From assembly GCA_002011215.1 (NCBI GenBank), contig MTML01000121.1, positions 1 to 5,622 on the forward strand: a DNA stretch of 5,622 nt, in the 5' to 3' direction. The notes under the pieces were generated by a model, which was not told where the DNA came from, ran no database searches, and worked only from the letters and a program-made list of their open reading frames with translations. Position numbers and translations under genes: made by a program. Below are positions 2 to 5,622 of this stretch, one piece after another; position 1 is the stretch's first letter, and each line of letters starts with the position of its first letter. The DNA comes from Archaeoglobus sp. JdFR-24 (lineage in GTDB: Archaea; Halobacteriota; Archaeoglobi; Archaeoglobales; Archaeoglobaceae).

Positions 2-226
2 TTCATCTATGGGTTTGAGATGGTGCTCGATGAAGGGAAGTTAAAGCCAAAATTCATCAAAGGTTATCATGCCTCTGGGCATGCTTCACCAGATGACTTG
101 AGGTGGATGGTTGAGGAAATTGATCCCGATATCATCATTCCGGTGCATACTGAGAATCCAGTGTGGTTTGCTGAGAACTTTGAGAATGTAGTGGTTCTGA
201 GAGACGGTGAAAGTTTTGAAATATGA
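2..226 (+). CDS. RNase J-like beta-CASP metallo-beta-lactamase nuclease, C-terminal fragment
   Basis: Only the last 74 codons are present; the frame is open from base 2 and ends at TGA 224-226, so the ATG at 20 is internal (it is preceded in frame by FIYGFE). Two motifs identify it. SGHAS carries a histidine at 80-82 and IPVHTE carries one at 146-148, exactly 22 residues apart. This is the spacing of beta-CASP motifs B and C (metal-ligand histidines) in RNase J and CPSF73. The segment is the RMMBL (RNA specificity) end of the metallo-beta-lactamase fold, and the protein stops about 27 residues after the second His. It therefore lacks the extra C-terminal dimerisation domain of bacterial RNase J, as archaeal versions do. 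Expected role: cytoplasmic zinc-dependent 5'-3' exoribonuclease/endonuclease in RNA decay. The active-site HxHxDH motif lies upstream of the window. The exact subfamily is less certain than the superfamily. Confidence 0.85.
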   Translation, partial: FIYGFEMVLDEGKLKPKFIKGYHASGHASPDDLRWMVEEIDPDIIIPVHTENPVWFAENFENVVVLRDGESFEI

Positions 227-341: not shown

Positions 342-3300
342 ATGGTAAGCAGAATATCTAGCGACATCAAAAACCCCCAAGAAGCGATTGAACTTATCGA
401 TGCTGTTTACAAATCTTATCGACTTGATGATTTACAGCAATTAGCGCGTTGGAGAGGTGTAGCAAATGTTATAAAAGGATTCCTATACAAACCAGAGTTT
501 TTCATACGAGAGGTTATACAAAACGCTGATGATGCCAAATCAGAAGAGATAACGATAAGGGTTTCAGGATGTCATGTTGAAATACAGAATGATGGTGAAG
601 AATTTACCAAAAAACAGTTCGAGGCACTTTCTGCAATGGGTAAAAGCACAAAAAAGCTCGGAGAGTTTATAGGGAACTTTGGAATTGGTTTTAAGTCTGT
701 CTTTTATTATACTGACGAGGTTAAATTAGCGTCAGGTCATTTGAGGTGGAGGTATAAATCAGATACAATATGTGTACCATTCCCAGATTATGAAGGCATA
801 GATAATGTTGAATACATTGTTGGCACGAAGATATCCTTTAAATTAAGAGATGATAAGAAAGACATCTTTCTTGAGGAACTGAAGAACTTCCCGAAGGAAA
901 CAATATTATTCCTGCGTAATATCAAAAAAATTAGAATCATAATCGACGGTGAATGTGAAGAGATTAGCAAAGAGGATTTAGGAGGAAATAAGTGGAGAAT
1001 AATCGTAAGTAAGGATGGTTCAGAAGTAGAAAGATACTTTATACTAAAGAAGGATTATATAAAGTTTGATAAAGAACAGAGTGCTCGCTTTTTAAGGCAA
1101 AAACTAAGAGACAGATACGAGGAAGTTATCAAAGACTGTCCCGAGGAAGTTAAGTTATCCATTTCCGTAGCTATTCCTTTAAAAAACGAGTATGAAATTG
1201 ATGGTGATTACAATGGACTATTTTACACATTCCTACCAACTCAATCCAAAACTTATCTACCTTGCAACATTCATGCTGATTTTGTAATTGAGCAAGACAG
1301 GAGGTTTATAGACCAGACGAGCGAGTTTAACGAGCTAGTTGTTAAGAAGGCTTTGGAGCTAATAAAAGAGGTCATCGAATACTACAAAAACGCTAACTCC
1401 GATGATGAGAGGCTCCAAATATACAAGTGGCTCAGAAAAGCAGAATTTGACAAAGAAAAGGAGTCTTTGATTGCGTATTTGCACAGCGCGATAAGAGAAA
1501 TGTTTGAGAATGAAGACCTAATCCTGATCGATCATTCATTATACGATGATGTTGACAAAGTGTTTTTCAAAAGAGAAGAGGTGATAAACGCTGATGAATG
1601 GCTGTTTAACTATTTTGATAAGAAAGGAACCTACAAATACATACGCAGACATTACAAAAGATACCAAGCACATCCTGATGTCGTAAAGATACTAGAAGAG
1701 CACAACATAAAAATTAAAGAATTTACTTTTGAAGACATACTATGGAAATTAGAACATGATCGGTCTCTCCCGACCGAACCAGAAAAGTTGTTGCGATTTT
1801 ATCAAGCGATTAAAGACTATTGGATGAGTAAACCCAAGAATGACGAAGAAGTAAAGAAACTCATTAGCAATGCAAAGTTCTTATTGCTGGAAGAGAAAAC
1901 TTTCACATCCATTTCTCTATCTGAGGAAATTTACTATGTTAAATCCGAAATTCCCGAGAAGTACTTAAAGTACGCGGTTAAGTACGTCAACTTGCTGAAT
2001 AGAGAGTTAATAGAAAAAATAAAGCAAGTTGAAGACGCTGAGGAAATTTTCGAGTTTTTAGAGGAGATTGGAGTTAAAGAGCTAATTTTACAGAATATAC
2101 AGGATATCTTAGTTGAGGAGATAAACAAGAATCCTGAAAACTGGAGGAACTTGTTTGCTGAGCTTGTCAACATACACAAAGACAATCCAAGAAAGCTCGA
2201 TAAACTGAGACTTCCTTGTTATAGGCTGGCTACTCCGAACAAGGTTGAATGGTATAAACCCAACGAAATTTACTTCTCAAAGGCGTTCAAGAAAATCCTA
2301 GGTGGTTACGATTTAGAGGTGATTTTAAGGTTCTCTGAGGACGCCAAATTTGTTGTATCTGATTTCTTAAAGGGAGATTTCCTTGAGTTAATCGAAGGAG
2401 ATAGCATTGAAGACAAAAAGGAAGTAATATTTCGCTTACTTGAGAAGCAGGGAGTAAAACAAAGGTTGGATGTCAAAGATGAGGATAACATAGTAAAGCT
2501 ACCCAAATCTCGGAGCGGTAATCCTGTTGAAAAAGCAAAGGAGGAACTCAAAGAATTTATTGAAGAAAACAACATCGACTTTAGCGTTGAGTTCTTTGTT
2601 GGAGTGCCTTTGCAACCTTATAATAGTTATTACTATCCCAGTAAAATCCATGGTTATGTGTTCGGAATAATCGACAAGGGAATGGAGTACCAAGACAAAA
2701 TAATTGAAGAGTTCAGGAGAGGGGACAGAGATTATGTAGTCAATTTTAGCAATATGATTCTGAGAAACTGGCAAGATTATAAGCAATTCCTAAAATTAAC
2801 ATTGCTCTATTCTTACAGGATAAGTGCATACAACGAGGGCAAAGAACAATTTGGATTGAGCAAATTTGGGAAAATGCTCAAAGAAGAGTGTTGGCTGATA
2901 GATGCTAATGGTTATCCCCGCTCTCCTCTTGAACTTTTTGTTAACACTGAAGATAATCGAAAGTTAGGTTTGCCAGTCGTCAATCAGAACATACCTCTAC
3001 CACCGGATTTAATAGAGTTCTTGGAGCTCAATAGATCCCCAGACATCGAGTACTTACTCAAAAGGCTGGAAGTGGCAATAAATCGTGAAGATAGAAAAGA
3101 GACAGAAGATTTACTTTGGAAGATATACTTAGAAGTGAGTAAAGACGAAGAATCAAAAAACAAAGTAAAAGAGAAGCTAAGAAAGATACTGATCTGGAAA
3201 GATGCAGAAATCGAACTCGTACCAATCGAGAGGGTCTGCTGGATATCACAGATAAGGGAGGACGGATTTGGCAAAAAGCAACAGCAGAAGACAATACTAA

Positions 3301-5273
3301 AAATGATCACTCCACTTAAGGACTACTATGGTGAAGAATTTAGAAAATTCTTTGTTGATGTTCTTGGAATTCCAGAAATTATCCCTCCAAGCATTTTCTT
3401 CGACTATTATACTAAGCTATTAGAGAAGACAGAACCGCTAAGTGATGCCGAAGTTGCATTTGTCTTAAACGTATATATAAACGCTGACAGCTATGGAATT
3501 CGGGATGAGATTTTAAATACAGATAAGCTGTTAAACCTGAATCGACGGTTCGTGTCAAAATTCGATATTAAGTACTACTGCTTAAATGAGGATATAGCCG
3601 TCAATTTACTGCCAGAAATAAAGGAGAAGACGCTTATAACTCCAAGGAGGATAAAGGACAGAAATATCAAGGGTACAGTTTATGAGGTCTTATTCGAAGA
3701 ACTTACGGATATTGAAGAAATATGCACATATAAGTGTATACCGGTAGAGGAAAAAGATTACGACATAGACTTCGGGAAGAAATCTCTGGTTTTTGCCATC
3801 TGGAACTATAGAAGCAAGCTAGAGATTGATGTCGATAAAATAAAGGAAATCTGTTCAAGAATCCTTGGAATAAAGGTCAAAAAGGCGAAGAAAATTAAAA
3901 CGGTGTATGAAGTTGAGGGAGCGAGGATAACCAAAGAGGTCGAGAAAAACACTGCCTACGATGAATCCAGAAACACGATATATATCATAGATGAAAAAGC
4001 GCAGAAAAAATACTCCGCGTTAATCCAAATAAGAGATGCTTTGTCCAAGTACTTATCCACATTCAAGGGTATCGACGAGGTGTTTAGTAACTGTTTCGAT
4101 AGACCAACCGAATACGTTGAGGAGTTTCTGCTCAGTAAAGGAATTGAAAAGGTTGAGCCTCTTTTTGAATTAGAAGAAGTGGTCTCTGCAGCACCTACCG
4201 AAAAATTAACTGAAGAAATATCAATCAGCAAGCAAATCAGCGAAACATCTACAGAAATGGTTGAAGCACAAACACCTTCTGAATTGGCTGAAGATGTGTC
4301 AAAGTCACAGATCGGCGATACAAAAGTGATTTACGACACAGAAGAATTGTCCGAACACGTTGTAGAGCAAAATCTCGAAGTTGCATCGCAAGTAGGAGAG
4401 GTAAAAGAGAGACAAAGAAAAACAGTTGAGGAATCAAAGCCTTATGAAAAAGAAAAAGAAGACATCTTAATCCAGGAAAGTGGCTACGAGCAGAAAACTA
4501 CCGAAATTGCCGAATCATCAGAGCAAAAAAGTGAGCCCATTGGGTCAACAGCTAAAGATGTTGCGGAAGCTATAGAATCTGATGAAACTGTTAAACTTGA
4601 CACGCTTCAGAAAGTTGAAAAAAAGTCACGTGAAGAGTGGGAAGCAGAATGTGAGTCGAGTGAAGTAGATGTTAATATAATACCAGTAACATGTATAAAG
4701 CCAACTGGAGAATTTGCTGAAAGTTCAGAAGATTATGTAAAATTTGTAGAATTCTTACCTACTAAGCTTGAAAGTAGAGATGTTACAGAACAGTCATCAA
4801 GTAAAAGACACACTTTGAGTGAAGAAGACAAGAAACGAGTTGGCCGTTGGGGTGAAGAATTTGTATTTCTTTACCTTAAGAACGATCTGCTGAAAAATTA
4901 CGAAGACGCAGAAGTTGAAGAGCTTGACGATGGAGGAAAAGTTGTATTAAAGTATCATGGACGGATTTTGGCAGAAGTTCACTGGTTAAATCATAAAGAA
5001 GATGCAATGAAAGAATACGATATCAAAGTGGTGAGAGAGGGTAAAGAAAAATACATTGAGGTTAAATCGACAGCTAAAGATAGTAAAGACTTCTTTGAAA
5101 TTTCTCTAAATCAATGGAAGTTTGCTGCGAGCCATGGTAGTAAGTATTACATCTACAGAGTCTACAATGTTGGCACAAAAGAGCCTAAGGTAGTCATTCT
5201 CGAAAATCCACACGAGTTGTGGAAGCAAGGAATATTGAAAATTAGAGCCAATTCAATACAGATATACATTTGA
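342..5273 (+). CDS. Giant sacsin/NO VEIN-type GHKL ATPase with C-terminal NOV_C (DUF3883) nuclease domain
   Basis: 1643 aa (roughly 190 kDa), intact, with no signal peptide or membrane segment, so cytoplasmic. Start fixed by the SD and an in-frame TGA just upstream. Domains in order: (a) residues about 25-200, Bergerat-fold ATPase with N-box E57/N61/D64 (FIREVIQNADDA), G1 NDG 83-85, STK 102-104, G2 GNFGIGFKS 111-119 and a GT at 161-162; (b) about 270-340, Hsp90-type middle segment with FYTFLPT 294-300 and HADFVIEQDRR 311-321; (c) about 447-1090, helical scaffold with degenerate repeats; (d) about 1145-1270, conserved-looking alpha/beta segment before the linker; (e) 1275-1489, charged linker; (f) 1490-1643, NOV_C with GEE 1504-1506, VHWLN 1546-1550, YD 1559-1560 and EVKST 1573-1577. 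Family knowledge: SACS/Nov GHKL ATPases bind and hydrolyse ATP, and NOV_C is a PD-(D/E)XK-like nuclease domain. Inferred role: ATP-gated nuclease in defence or nucleic-acid surveillance. Substrate unknown. It probably stands alone as a transcription unit. Confidence 0.9.
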   Translation: MVSRISSDIKNPQEAIELIDAVYKSYRLDDLQQLARWRGVANVIKGFLYKPEFFIREVIQNADDAKSEEITIRVSGCHVEIQNDGEEFTKKQFEALSAMGKSTKKLGEFIGNFGIGFKSVFYYTDEVKLASGHLRWRYKSDTICVPFPDYEGIDNVEYIVGTKISFKLRDDKKDIFLEELKNFPKETILFLRNIKKIRIIIDGECEEISKEDLGGNKWRIIVSKDGSEVERYFILKKDYIKFDKEQSARFLRQKLRDRYEEVIKDCPEEVKLSISVAIPLKNEYEIDGDYNGLFYTFLPTQSKTYLPCNIHADFVIEQDRRFIDQTSEFNELVVKKALELIKEVIEYYKNANSDDERLQIYKWLRKAEFDKEKESLIAYLHSAIREMFENEDLILIDHSLYDDVDKVFFKREEVINADEWLFNYFDKKGTYKYIRRHYKRYQAHPDVVKILEEHNIKIKEFTFEDILWKLEHDRSLPTEPEKLLRFYQAIKDYWMSKPKNDEEVKKLISNAKFLLLEEKTFTSISLSEEIYYVKSEIPEKYLKYAVKYVNLLNRELIEKIKQVEDAEEIFEFLEEIGVKELILQNIQDILVEEINKNPENWRNLFAELVNIHKDNPRKLDKLRLPCYRLATPNKVEWYKPNEIYFSKAFKKILGGYDLEVILRFSEDAKFVVSDFLKGDFLELIEGDSIEDKKEVIFRLLEKQGVKQRLDVKDEDNIVKLPKSRSGNPVEKAKEELKEFIEENNIDFSVEFFVGVPLQPYNSYYYPSKIHGYVFGIIDKGMEYQDKIIEEFRRGDRDYVVNFSNMILRNWQDYKQFLKLTLLYSYRISAYNEGKEQFGLSKFGKMLKEECWLIDANGYPRSPLELFVNTEDNRKLGLPVVNQNIPLPPDLIEFLELNRSPDIEYLLKRLEVAINREDRKETEDLLWKIYLEVSKDEESKNKVKEKLRKILIWKDAEIELVPIERVCWISQIREDGFGKKQQQKTILKMITPLKDYYGEEFRKFFVDVLGIPEIIPPSIFFDYYTKLLEKTEPLSDAEVAFVLNVYINADSYGIRDEILNTDKLLNLNRRFVSKFDIKYYCLNEDIAVNLLPEIKEKTLITPRRIKDRNIKGTVYEVLFEELTDIEEICTYKCIPVEEKDYDIDFGKKSLVFAIWNYRSKLEIDVDKIKEICSRILGIKVKKAKKIKTVYEVEGARITKEVEKNTAYDESRNTIYIIDEKAQKKYSALIQIRDALSKYLSTFKGIDEVFSNCFDRPTEYVEEFLLSKGIEKVEPLFELEEVVSAAPTEKLTEEISISKQISETSTEMVEAQTPSELAEDVSKSQIGDTKVIYDTEELSEHVVEQNLEVASQVGEVKERQRKTVEESKPYEKEKEDILIQESGYEQKTTEIAESSEQKSEPIGSTAKDVAEAIESDETVKLDTLQKVEKKSREEWEAECESSEVDVNIIPVTCIKPTGEFAESSEDYVKFVEFLPTKLESRDVTEQSSSKRHTLSEEDKKRVGRWGEEFVFLYLKNDLLKNYEDAEVEELDDGGKVVLKYHGRILAEVHWLNHKEDAMKEYDIKVVREGKEKYIEVKSTAKDSKDFFEISLNQWKFAASHGSKYYIYRVYNVGTKEPKVVILENPHELWKQGILKIRANSIQIYI
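414..941 (+). other. SACS/Nov-type GHKL (Hsp90-like) ATPase domain, residues about 25-200
   Basis: Every element of the ATP site is readable. The N-box helix holds the presumed general base E57 and the Mg-coordinating N61, followed by D63-D64-A65. IQNDGEEF (81-88) is the sacsin/Nov form of the G1 box, with DG retained but without the DxGxG spacing of classical Hsp90. AMGKSTK (98-104) and IGNFGIGFKSVF (110-121) form the lid and G2 box. YIVGTKISF (158-166) supplies the last beta strand with its GT pair. No catalytic residue is missing, so an active ATPase is expected. Family resemblance is to NO VEIN-like and bacterial sacsin-like proteins more than to HtpG or MutL. Confidence 0.88.
1680..3611 (+). 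repeat. Degenerate protein repeats in the central scaffold, residues about 447-1090
   Basis: Units appear to share a plan: a short helix ending LExxGVK, then about 35 helical residues, then a beta segment rich in W/Y and proline. LEEHNIK 451-457 leads to LSEEIYYV 526-533; IFEFLEEIGVK 569-579 leads to YKPNEIYF 638-645; a third helix, IFRLLEKQGVK 696-706, may pair with LKEECWLI 846-853 across a long insert. Near 893, FLEL leads to PIERVCWI 961-968, and FFVDVLGIP 1003-1011 begins another. Two of the 11-residue helices are identical at 7 positions (I, F, L, E, G, V, K). The first three sit 122 and 127 residues apart. The repeats are seen by eye only and are not repeats at the DNA level. Confidence 0.45.
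4164..4808 (+). other. E/S/T/V-rich low-complexity linker, residues about 1275-1489
   Basis: About 215 residues dominated by Glu, Ser, Thr, Val and Lys with few aromatics, predicted disordered or weakly coiled. It joins the repeat scaffold to the nuclease domain and probably acts as a flexible tether. Within it, W1433-E-A-E-C1437 followed by the hydrophobic stretch VNIIPVTCI (1443-1451) and later FVEFLP (1471-1476) is less degenerate and may be a short folded or docking motif ahead of NOV_C. Reading frame and codon use continue without a break, so this is not a frameshifted stretch. Confidence 0.7.
4809..5270 (+). other. NOV_C (DUF3883) PD-(D/E)XK-type nuclease domain, residues 1490-1643
   Basis: Order and spacing fit the NO VEIN C-terminal family. 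A first helix has RWGEEFV (R1502 to V1508), where E1505 is the likely motif I residue. Then come VHWLN (1546-1550), YDIKV with D1560, and YIEVKST with E1573 and K1575, giving the D-(12)-ExK core of the PD-(D/E)XK fold. ISLNQW follows, with Q1591 in the helix where the family usually has a polar E/Q, and then YYIYRVYNV. All presumed metal-binding and catalytic residues are present, so nuclease activity is expected, although many DUF3883 proteins have not been tested biochemically. Confidence 0.8.
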
Positions 5274-5561: not shown

Positions 5562-5622
5562 TTACATACTCAGTATTTCCCTTATCATTCTCTCTTCAAC
5601 TGGCTTGAAATCTAAATACTCC
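5562..5622 (-). CDS. Partial convergent CDS, C-terminal tail, unrecognised
   Basis: Reading the minus strand inward from the window edge gives EYLDFKPVEERMIREILSM and then TAA (5562-5564). Only 19 codons are visible. They look like real protein: an amphipathic charged helix with K/E/I-rich composition and AGA/AGG and ATA codons, like the large gene. The other minus-strand frame checked hits a stop after eight codons. The start and most of the gene are off the right edge, so no function can be given. It would be convergent with the large gene, with 288 bases between stops, and so not in its operon. Confidence 0.5.
   Translation of the reverse strand, partial: EYLDFKPVEERMIREILSM

Follow-up and report, generated by a model that had tools for sequence, protein, structure and literature searches.

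Among the described systems closest to the locus considered here is Tiamat, which the available text of one paper records in 20 of 382 complete archaeal genomes and attributes to Millman et al., 2022 (PMC13321033), and which the accessible portions of two other sources list among the systems of unknown mechanism (PMC10482375; PMC12926258). We analyzed a stretch of 5622 bases (37% G+C) from Archaeoglobus sp. JdFR-24, the whole of which we call the window, and which holds a single long gene coding for a protein with a GHKL-type ATP-binding head, a long middle region and a C-terminal NOV_C domain. These three elements are also united within one profile of the PADLOC family TmtA, which we take to be the gene of the Tiamat system; in the literature searched, which leaves out most subscription journals, we found no paper naming Tiamat and TmtA together and none joining Tiamat, phage and Hsp90-like. 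We consider it rather probable that the window, from an Archaeoglobus-like hyperthermophile, encodes a Tiamat-type antivirus protein which acts as an ATP-gated nuclease and whose gene has been inserted between RNase J-like and MNT toxin-antitoxin-type genes.

Eight of the nine PADLOC families matched by the window protein are TmtA families, the best being PDLC03972 (E 1.1e-92). The best stretch aligns residues 50-1011 with positions 40-955 of this model, and the protein differs from the profile in that its match is broken into three stretches instead of running the full length, and in the long polar tether that precedes its NOV_C domain. The model, 1302 positions in length, includes the NOV_C end itself: the protein of another genome of the order (G001) covers positions 28-955 and 951-1293, and a full-length relative (L047) positions 6-1299. 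An alignment search that scored 7997 candidates recovered 580 homologous proteins at E<=1e-10; the matches listed (the best 120 of the 580) include NO VEIN-type proteins of fish and rotifers, and plant ones came from a separate search. The SACS-NOV_C architecture is known and common, recurring as the Pfam pair PF25794 and PF13020 in plants, animals and bacteria; the eukaryotic NO VEIN-type proteins are longer (about 2500-2900 residues) and share ~30-40% identity with the window protein over short segments. The latter represents a hyperthermophilic archaeal branch, with about 75-80% identity only to three full-length proteins of the homolog pool. From these comparisons of sequence, it is a new archaeal member of a catalogued single-gene family already reported in archaea. 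A preliminary description of this DNA had offered it as a candidate archaeal defense protein; as a candidate, it is not new.

The same description had reported one uninterrupted frame of 1643 residues and had placed E57, N61, N83-D84-G85, G111-S119, D1560, E1573 and K1575 within it, all of which agrees with our translation; the longest open frame across 200 base shuffles of the window is 231 codons. The sole relative from the species-genome scan, that of Archaeoglobus sp. JdFR-37 (L001), is 75% identical in the best segment, which spans residues 1-1643. The ratio of nonsynonymous to synonymous substitution rates (dN/dS, Nei-Gojobori) against this ortholog is 0.17 overall, indicating that the open reading frame (ORF) is a gene under selection; by part it is 0.18 for the head, 0.12 for the repeats, 0.41 for the linker and 0.27 for NOV_C. 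An Rfam search of the window gave no match, and scans for promoters (sigma-70) and terminators, using models that fit archaea badly, found it no richer in these than its shuffles.

The head matches the Pfam SACS domain (residues 42-133, E 9.9e-11) and the NCBIfam sacsin N-terminal domain (E 3.5e-20), and its nearest matches are sacsin SR1 and Hsp90. Seven residues, namely E57, N61, D64, G111, G114, G116 and R320, are identical in all 40 aligned sequences, the last being a candidate catalytic arginine that the preliminary description overlooked. Motif II is looser: position 83 is N in 24, H in 15 and Y in one of these sequences, position 84 is N in 28 and D in 12, and position 85 is G in 23, E in 16 and A in one. 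Therefore, the ATP site is of the sacsin type and not Hsp90-canonical; the GHKL site earlier called complete does possess its residues, but only in this sacsin-like sense.

At the other end, the Pfam NOV_C match spans residues 1536-1619 (E 2e-18; 66.7 bits against a cut-off of 22.1), so that both domains for which the preliminary description had proposed a profile search are recovered in Pfam. Its nuclease-type triad stands as well, with D1560 and K1575 present in 44 of 44 aligned sequences and E1573 in 41. The predicted NOV_C structure is similar to those of PD-(D/E)XK nucleases and retains the D, E and K residues; the SPARDA nuclease and the archaeal Hjc show 9-16% identity to the model in the best rows and have different partners. 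The intervening region, formerly taken for a scaffold of about 1000 residues, is indeed long; however, it resolves into an array of degenerate repeats (residues about 380-1110) and a tether of ~200 residues. A Pfam scan of this middle region found no domain at E<=1. In the tether (1281-1490) 67% of residues are D/E/K/R/S/T/P/Q/N, and residues 1441-1478 within it have a predicted local distance difference test score (pLDDT) below 50.

The kinship of the head with sacsin SR1 and Hsp90, together with ATPase residues that the sacsin literature, in its accessible portions, describes as common to sacsin, might also point to a sacsin-like chaperone in which the NOV_C end binds nucleic acid rather than cutting it. 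Sacsin-type chaperones are defined by an Hsp90-type head along with DnaJ and HEPN domains; the window protein gave no Pfam match to DnaJ or HEPN at E<=1 and has NOV_C instead. We hold the chaperone to be most improbable, in view of the near-invariant triad, the patchy distribution described below and the exchange of NOV_C for another nuclease-like end in relatives. Among 16 relatives, the C-terminal motif is of the NOV_C ExK type in seven (in L043 on a separate frame, while L053 and L056 are without the head glycine motif in that frame), a CxxC HNH-like type in six (L045, L050, L051, L052, L054 and L055; PADLOC confirms HNH in L045) and neither in three (including L057, which is without the head glycine motif). 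In 32 pool proteins chosen for having no listed NOV_C, the motif CQ[IML]C lies near the end in 23, and domain matches comprise weak HNH_2 (9), HNH (1), NucS_C (1), OST-HTH (1) and NOV_C (2); since the first HNH histidine is apparently replaced in many of the HNH-like ones, the nuclease-type label is putative. A DrmD/HmaA-like helicase adjoins five of the six HNH-like relatives as opposed to none of the seven with NOV_C (Fisher p 0.0047 over 13 loci, kinship ignored); the sixth helicase neighbor (in L049) itself carries NOV_C. A tentative broader conception, to which we give somewhat less than even weight, is that TmtA is a modular immune receptor: a constant GHKL-repeat sensor would be coupled to an exchangeable warhead (an HNH-like zinc domain, NucS or the PD-(D/E)XK NOV_C), or a neighboring SNF2 helicase would do the cutting, with the Archaeoglobales version inserted behind an RNase J-like gene at a site occupied in other genomes by McrBC or Rad50-like modules.

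In the order, PDLC03972 is matched in 17 of 57 genomes, seven with the GHKL part and ten at the NOV_C end only (model from ~1130), at a loose threshold under which seven of 14 control genomes also match. In three of the seven genomes with the GHKL part there are in-frame stops in the matched stretch. With the window protein as query, matches at E<=1e-8 occur in 17 of the phylum's 246 genomes. Among 72,556 plasmid records, 20 contain distant homologs, and no match there covers more than 80% of the query; such homologs also occur at 27 loci on viral contigs. Several TmtA relatives have stops or split frames (L043 7111-11877, G244:C145 and G251:C73), representing decay or assembly error. A housekeeping role was rejected as the principal interpretation on account of the seven of 57 genomes and the in-frame stops. 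The outcome that the preliminary description had named as contrary to defense, near-universal presence in housekeeping neighborhoods, is not what we see.

The site of insertion can be recognized by comparison with other genomes. In G035, 185 bases with no gene separate the stop of the RNase J-like gene from the MNT gene; the start of the window is 74% identical to the sequence at this locus, and the window's tail 74-78% (short tail matches of 19-38 bases in G142, G256 and G260 and a second one in G035 were set aside). By sequence, this is a near-empty version of the site. Between these two flanks, G133 has a Metallophos and AAA_23 (Mre11/Rad50-like) pair. Next to MNT in G035 lies a gene with a match to HEPN toxins (E 1.3e-12). 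Besides the window, L104 and L105 carry this RNase J-like/MNT interval. Across the order, 23 of the 57 genomes have an RNase J match (24 matches in all), and we examined 20 loci from 19 genomes (G254, G184, G174 and G108 were left out). Behind the RNase J-like gene, six loci (L106, L107, L108, L110, L112 and L114) have McrB and McrC homologs, McrC being identified by Pfam in L106 and by homology in the others; the first McrB frame lies 0.1-3.7 kb past the RNase J-like gene, with intervening genes in some loci, and McrB is split in L112. The other 14 comprise one with the Rad50-like pair, one empty, one with TmtA (G001), eight short or unassigned and three with a convergent gene pair, which by eye looks metabolic. 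An MNT homolog is present in two of the 20. The accessible text of a study on Pseudomonas describes one hotspot whose commonest systems are Tiamat and Type IV restriction (PMC12629846), an independent parallel to the Archaeoglobales site.

RmuC matches (PF02646) are found just upstream in G035, G133 and G155, and one might envisage the window protein as a DNA repair or recombination nuclease of the Hjc/RecU-like kind, working with these RmuC-RNase J neighbors. This strikes us as quite improbable, given the presence of the GHKL part in so few genomes of the order and the situation in G001, where TmtA is intact despite there being no RmuC match (PF02646) in the genome and an RNase J frame of only 68 residues ahead of it (L123 10515-10721, oriented; also L074). 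Judging by the RNase J remnant and the missing RmuC, which fit such a transfer, the G001 gene would have moved with a piece of its flank.

Neighborhoods were compared for 16 loci drawn from the phylum and order scan matches. DruA and HerA adjoin the TmtA relative in L044. A common cluster lies beside TmtA in L047 (12352-19957) and L048 (12427-19963), comprising a 440-residue protein without assignment, a HerA-like protein, two small proteins likewise without assignment and a Type III restriction enzyme-like protein. DrmD/HmaA-like helicases adjoin in six of the 16 loci (e.g., HmaA in L049 at 1674 bits, DrmD in L050), recalling the Hma and DISARM-type loci; in contrast, the 5.6-kb window contains no SNF2-type helicase gene. 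In L001, TmtA is followed after a few bases by a PDC-S11-like gene, then by a gene that matches no PADLOC family and by one for an SMC-type ATPase (LmuB 1.7e-33). Further island-like genes are seen at 4838-9231 and 23422-24987 of the same locus, which on inspection by eye resemble a recombinase fragment and a DUF1156-type methylase. Nearest neighbors match 167 PADLOC families at E<=1e-25 versus 21 for control ORFs (116 each), a comparison that counts families and not proteins, such that one helicase matches many models; the neighbor set is also longer (50,210 versus 40,727 residues, 117 ORFs each), the controls come from 12 of the 16 genomes, and the control families include, e.g., mad3 in four. 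The neighborhood check suggested earlier thus shows the surroundings of the relatives to be defense-rich.

These associations, namely HerA with DruA or the Type III restriction enzyme, the helicases and the closely spaced PDC-S11-like gene, would accord with a restriction-like system of several genes, in which the window protein is one subunit and works with a motor (HerA or an SNF2 helicase) or with a separate nuclease. We regard this as unlikely, as the 349-base tail of the window, where the next gene is convergent, shows no resemblance to the gene that follows TmtA in L001, and as no helicase lies beside the seven NOV_C-type relatives among the 16 loci. A companion gene downstream in the window was rejected: neither the L001 gene nor the two taken from L044 and L047 had a credible match in the tail. 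No partner gene is visible on either side of the gene (341 bases upstream and 349 downstream), but relatives do have adjoining genes, several of them HerA or SNF2-helicase genes, and strictly stand-alone action is therefore uncertain.

Returning to the Tiamat-type antivirus protein, the TmtA match, the patchy distribution, the insertion site occupied elsewhere by McrBC or a Rad50-like pair, and the defense-rich neighborhoods make a role in defense likely, in support of the earlier conjecture. ATP-gated cutting is plausible, with about even chances; the conserved residues at both ends count in favor of the explanation as a whole. In such a mechanism, the GHKL head and repeat arm would sense an invader signal, perhaps a DNA structure or a protein. 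Nucleotide binding would then close the head, probably as a dimeric clamp, bringing the tethered PD-(D/E)XK domains onto a nucleic acid which they may cut. The outcome might be the destruction of either the invader or the infected cell.

Table 1. Features of the window and their coordinates
Feature	Positions	Strand	Remarks
3' end of RNase J-like gene, left flank	2-226	+	Pfam RMMBL E 8e-7; NCBIfam RNase J E 5.9e-6
TmtA-family (Tiamat-type) gene	342-5273	+	ATG, 1643 residues, no internal stop; 75% identical ortholog in L001
Sacsin/Hsp90-type GHKL head	453-971	+	Residues about 38-210
E57-N61, candidate catalytic Glu and Mg-binding Asn	510-524	+	Invariant 40/40; roles suggested by analogy to Hsp90/sacsin, from accessible text
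Motif II N83-G85 through G111-S119 (GxxGxG)	588-698	+	G111, G114, G116 invariant 40/40; motif II variable
R320, candidate counterpart of Hsp90 Arg380 / sacsin Arg474	1299-1301	+	Invariant 40/40; equivalence putative, by analogy, from accessible text
Degenerate ~120-residue repeats	1479-3671	+	Residues about 380-1110; profile self-comparison E 9e-13 to 3e-6
Low-complexity polar tether	4182-4811	+	Residues 1281-1490; composition, 60% identity, dN/dS 0.41
NOV_C (DUF3883) PD-(D/E)XK-like domain	4812-5270	+	Residues 1491-1643
E1505	4854-4856	+	E in 31/44 sequences; overlooked in the preliminary description
D1560, E1573, K1575, catalytic-type residues	5019-5066	+	Conserved 44/44, 41/44, 44/44
MNT nucleotidyltransferase gene, last 19 codons and stop, right flank	5562-5621	-	Identical to G035 and G133 C-termini; Pfam Polbeta in G133

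The window protein offers named candidate residues in both halves (E57, R320, D1560 and K1575), and it displays, within the Tiamat-type family, an arm built of repeats and a nuclease-type tail on a tether; its hyperthermophilic source lineage may suit structural work on such proteins. That relatives exchange the C-terminal warhead suggests that the sensor is the GHKL-repeat part, and the alternately filled interval behind the RNase J-like gene is a concrete place in which to seek further archaeal defense genes.
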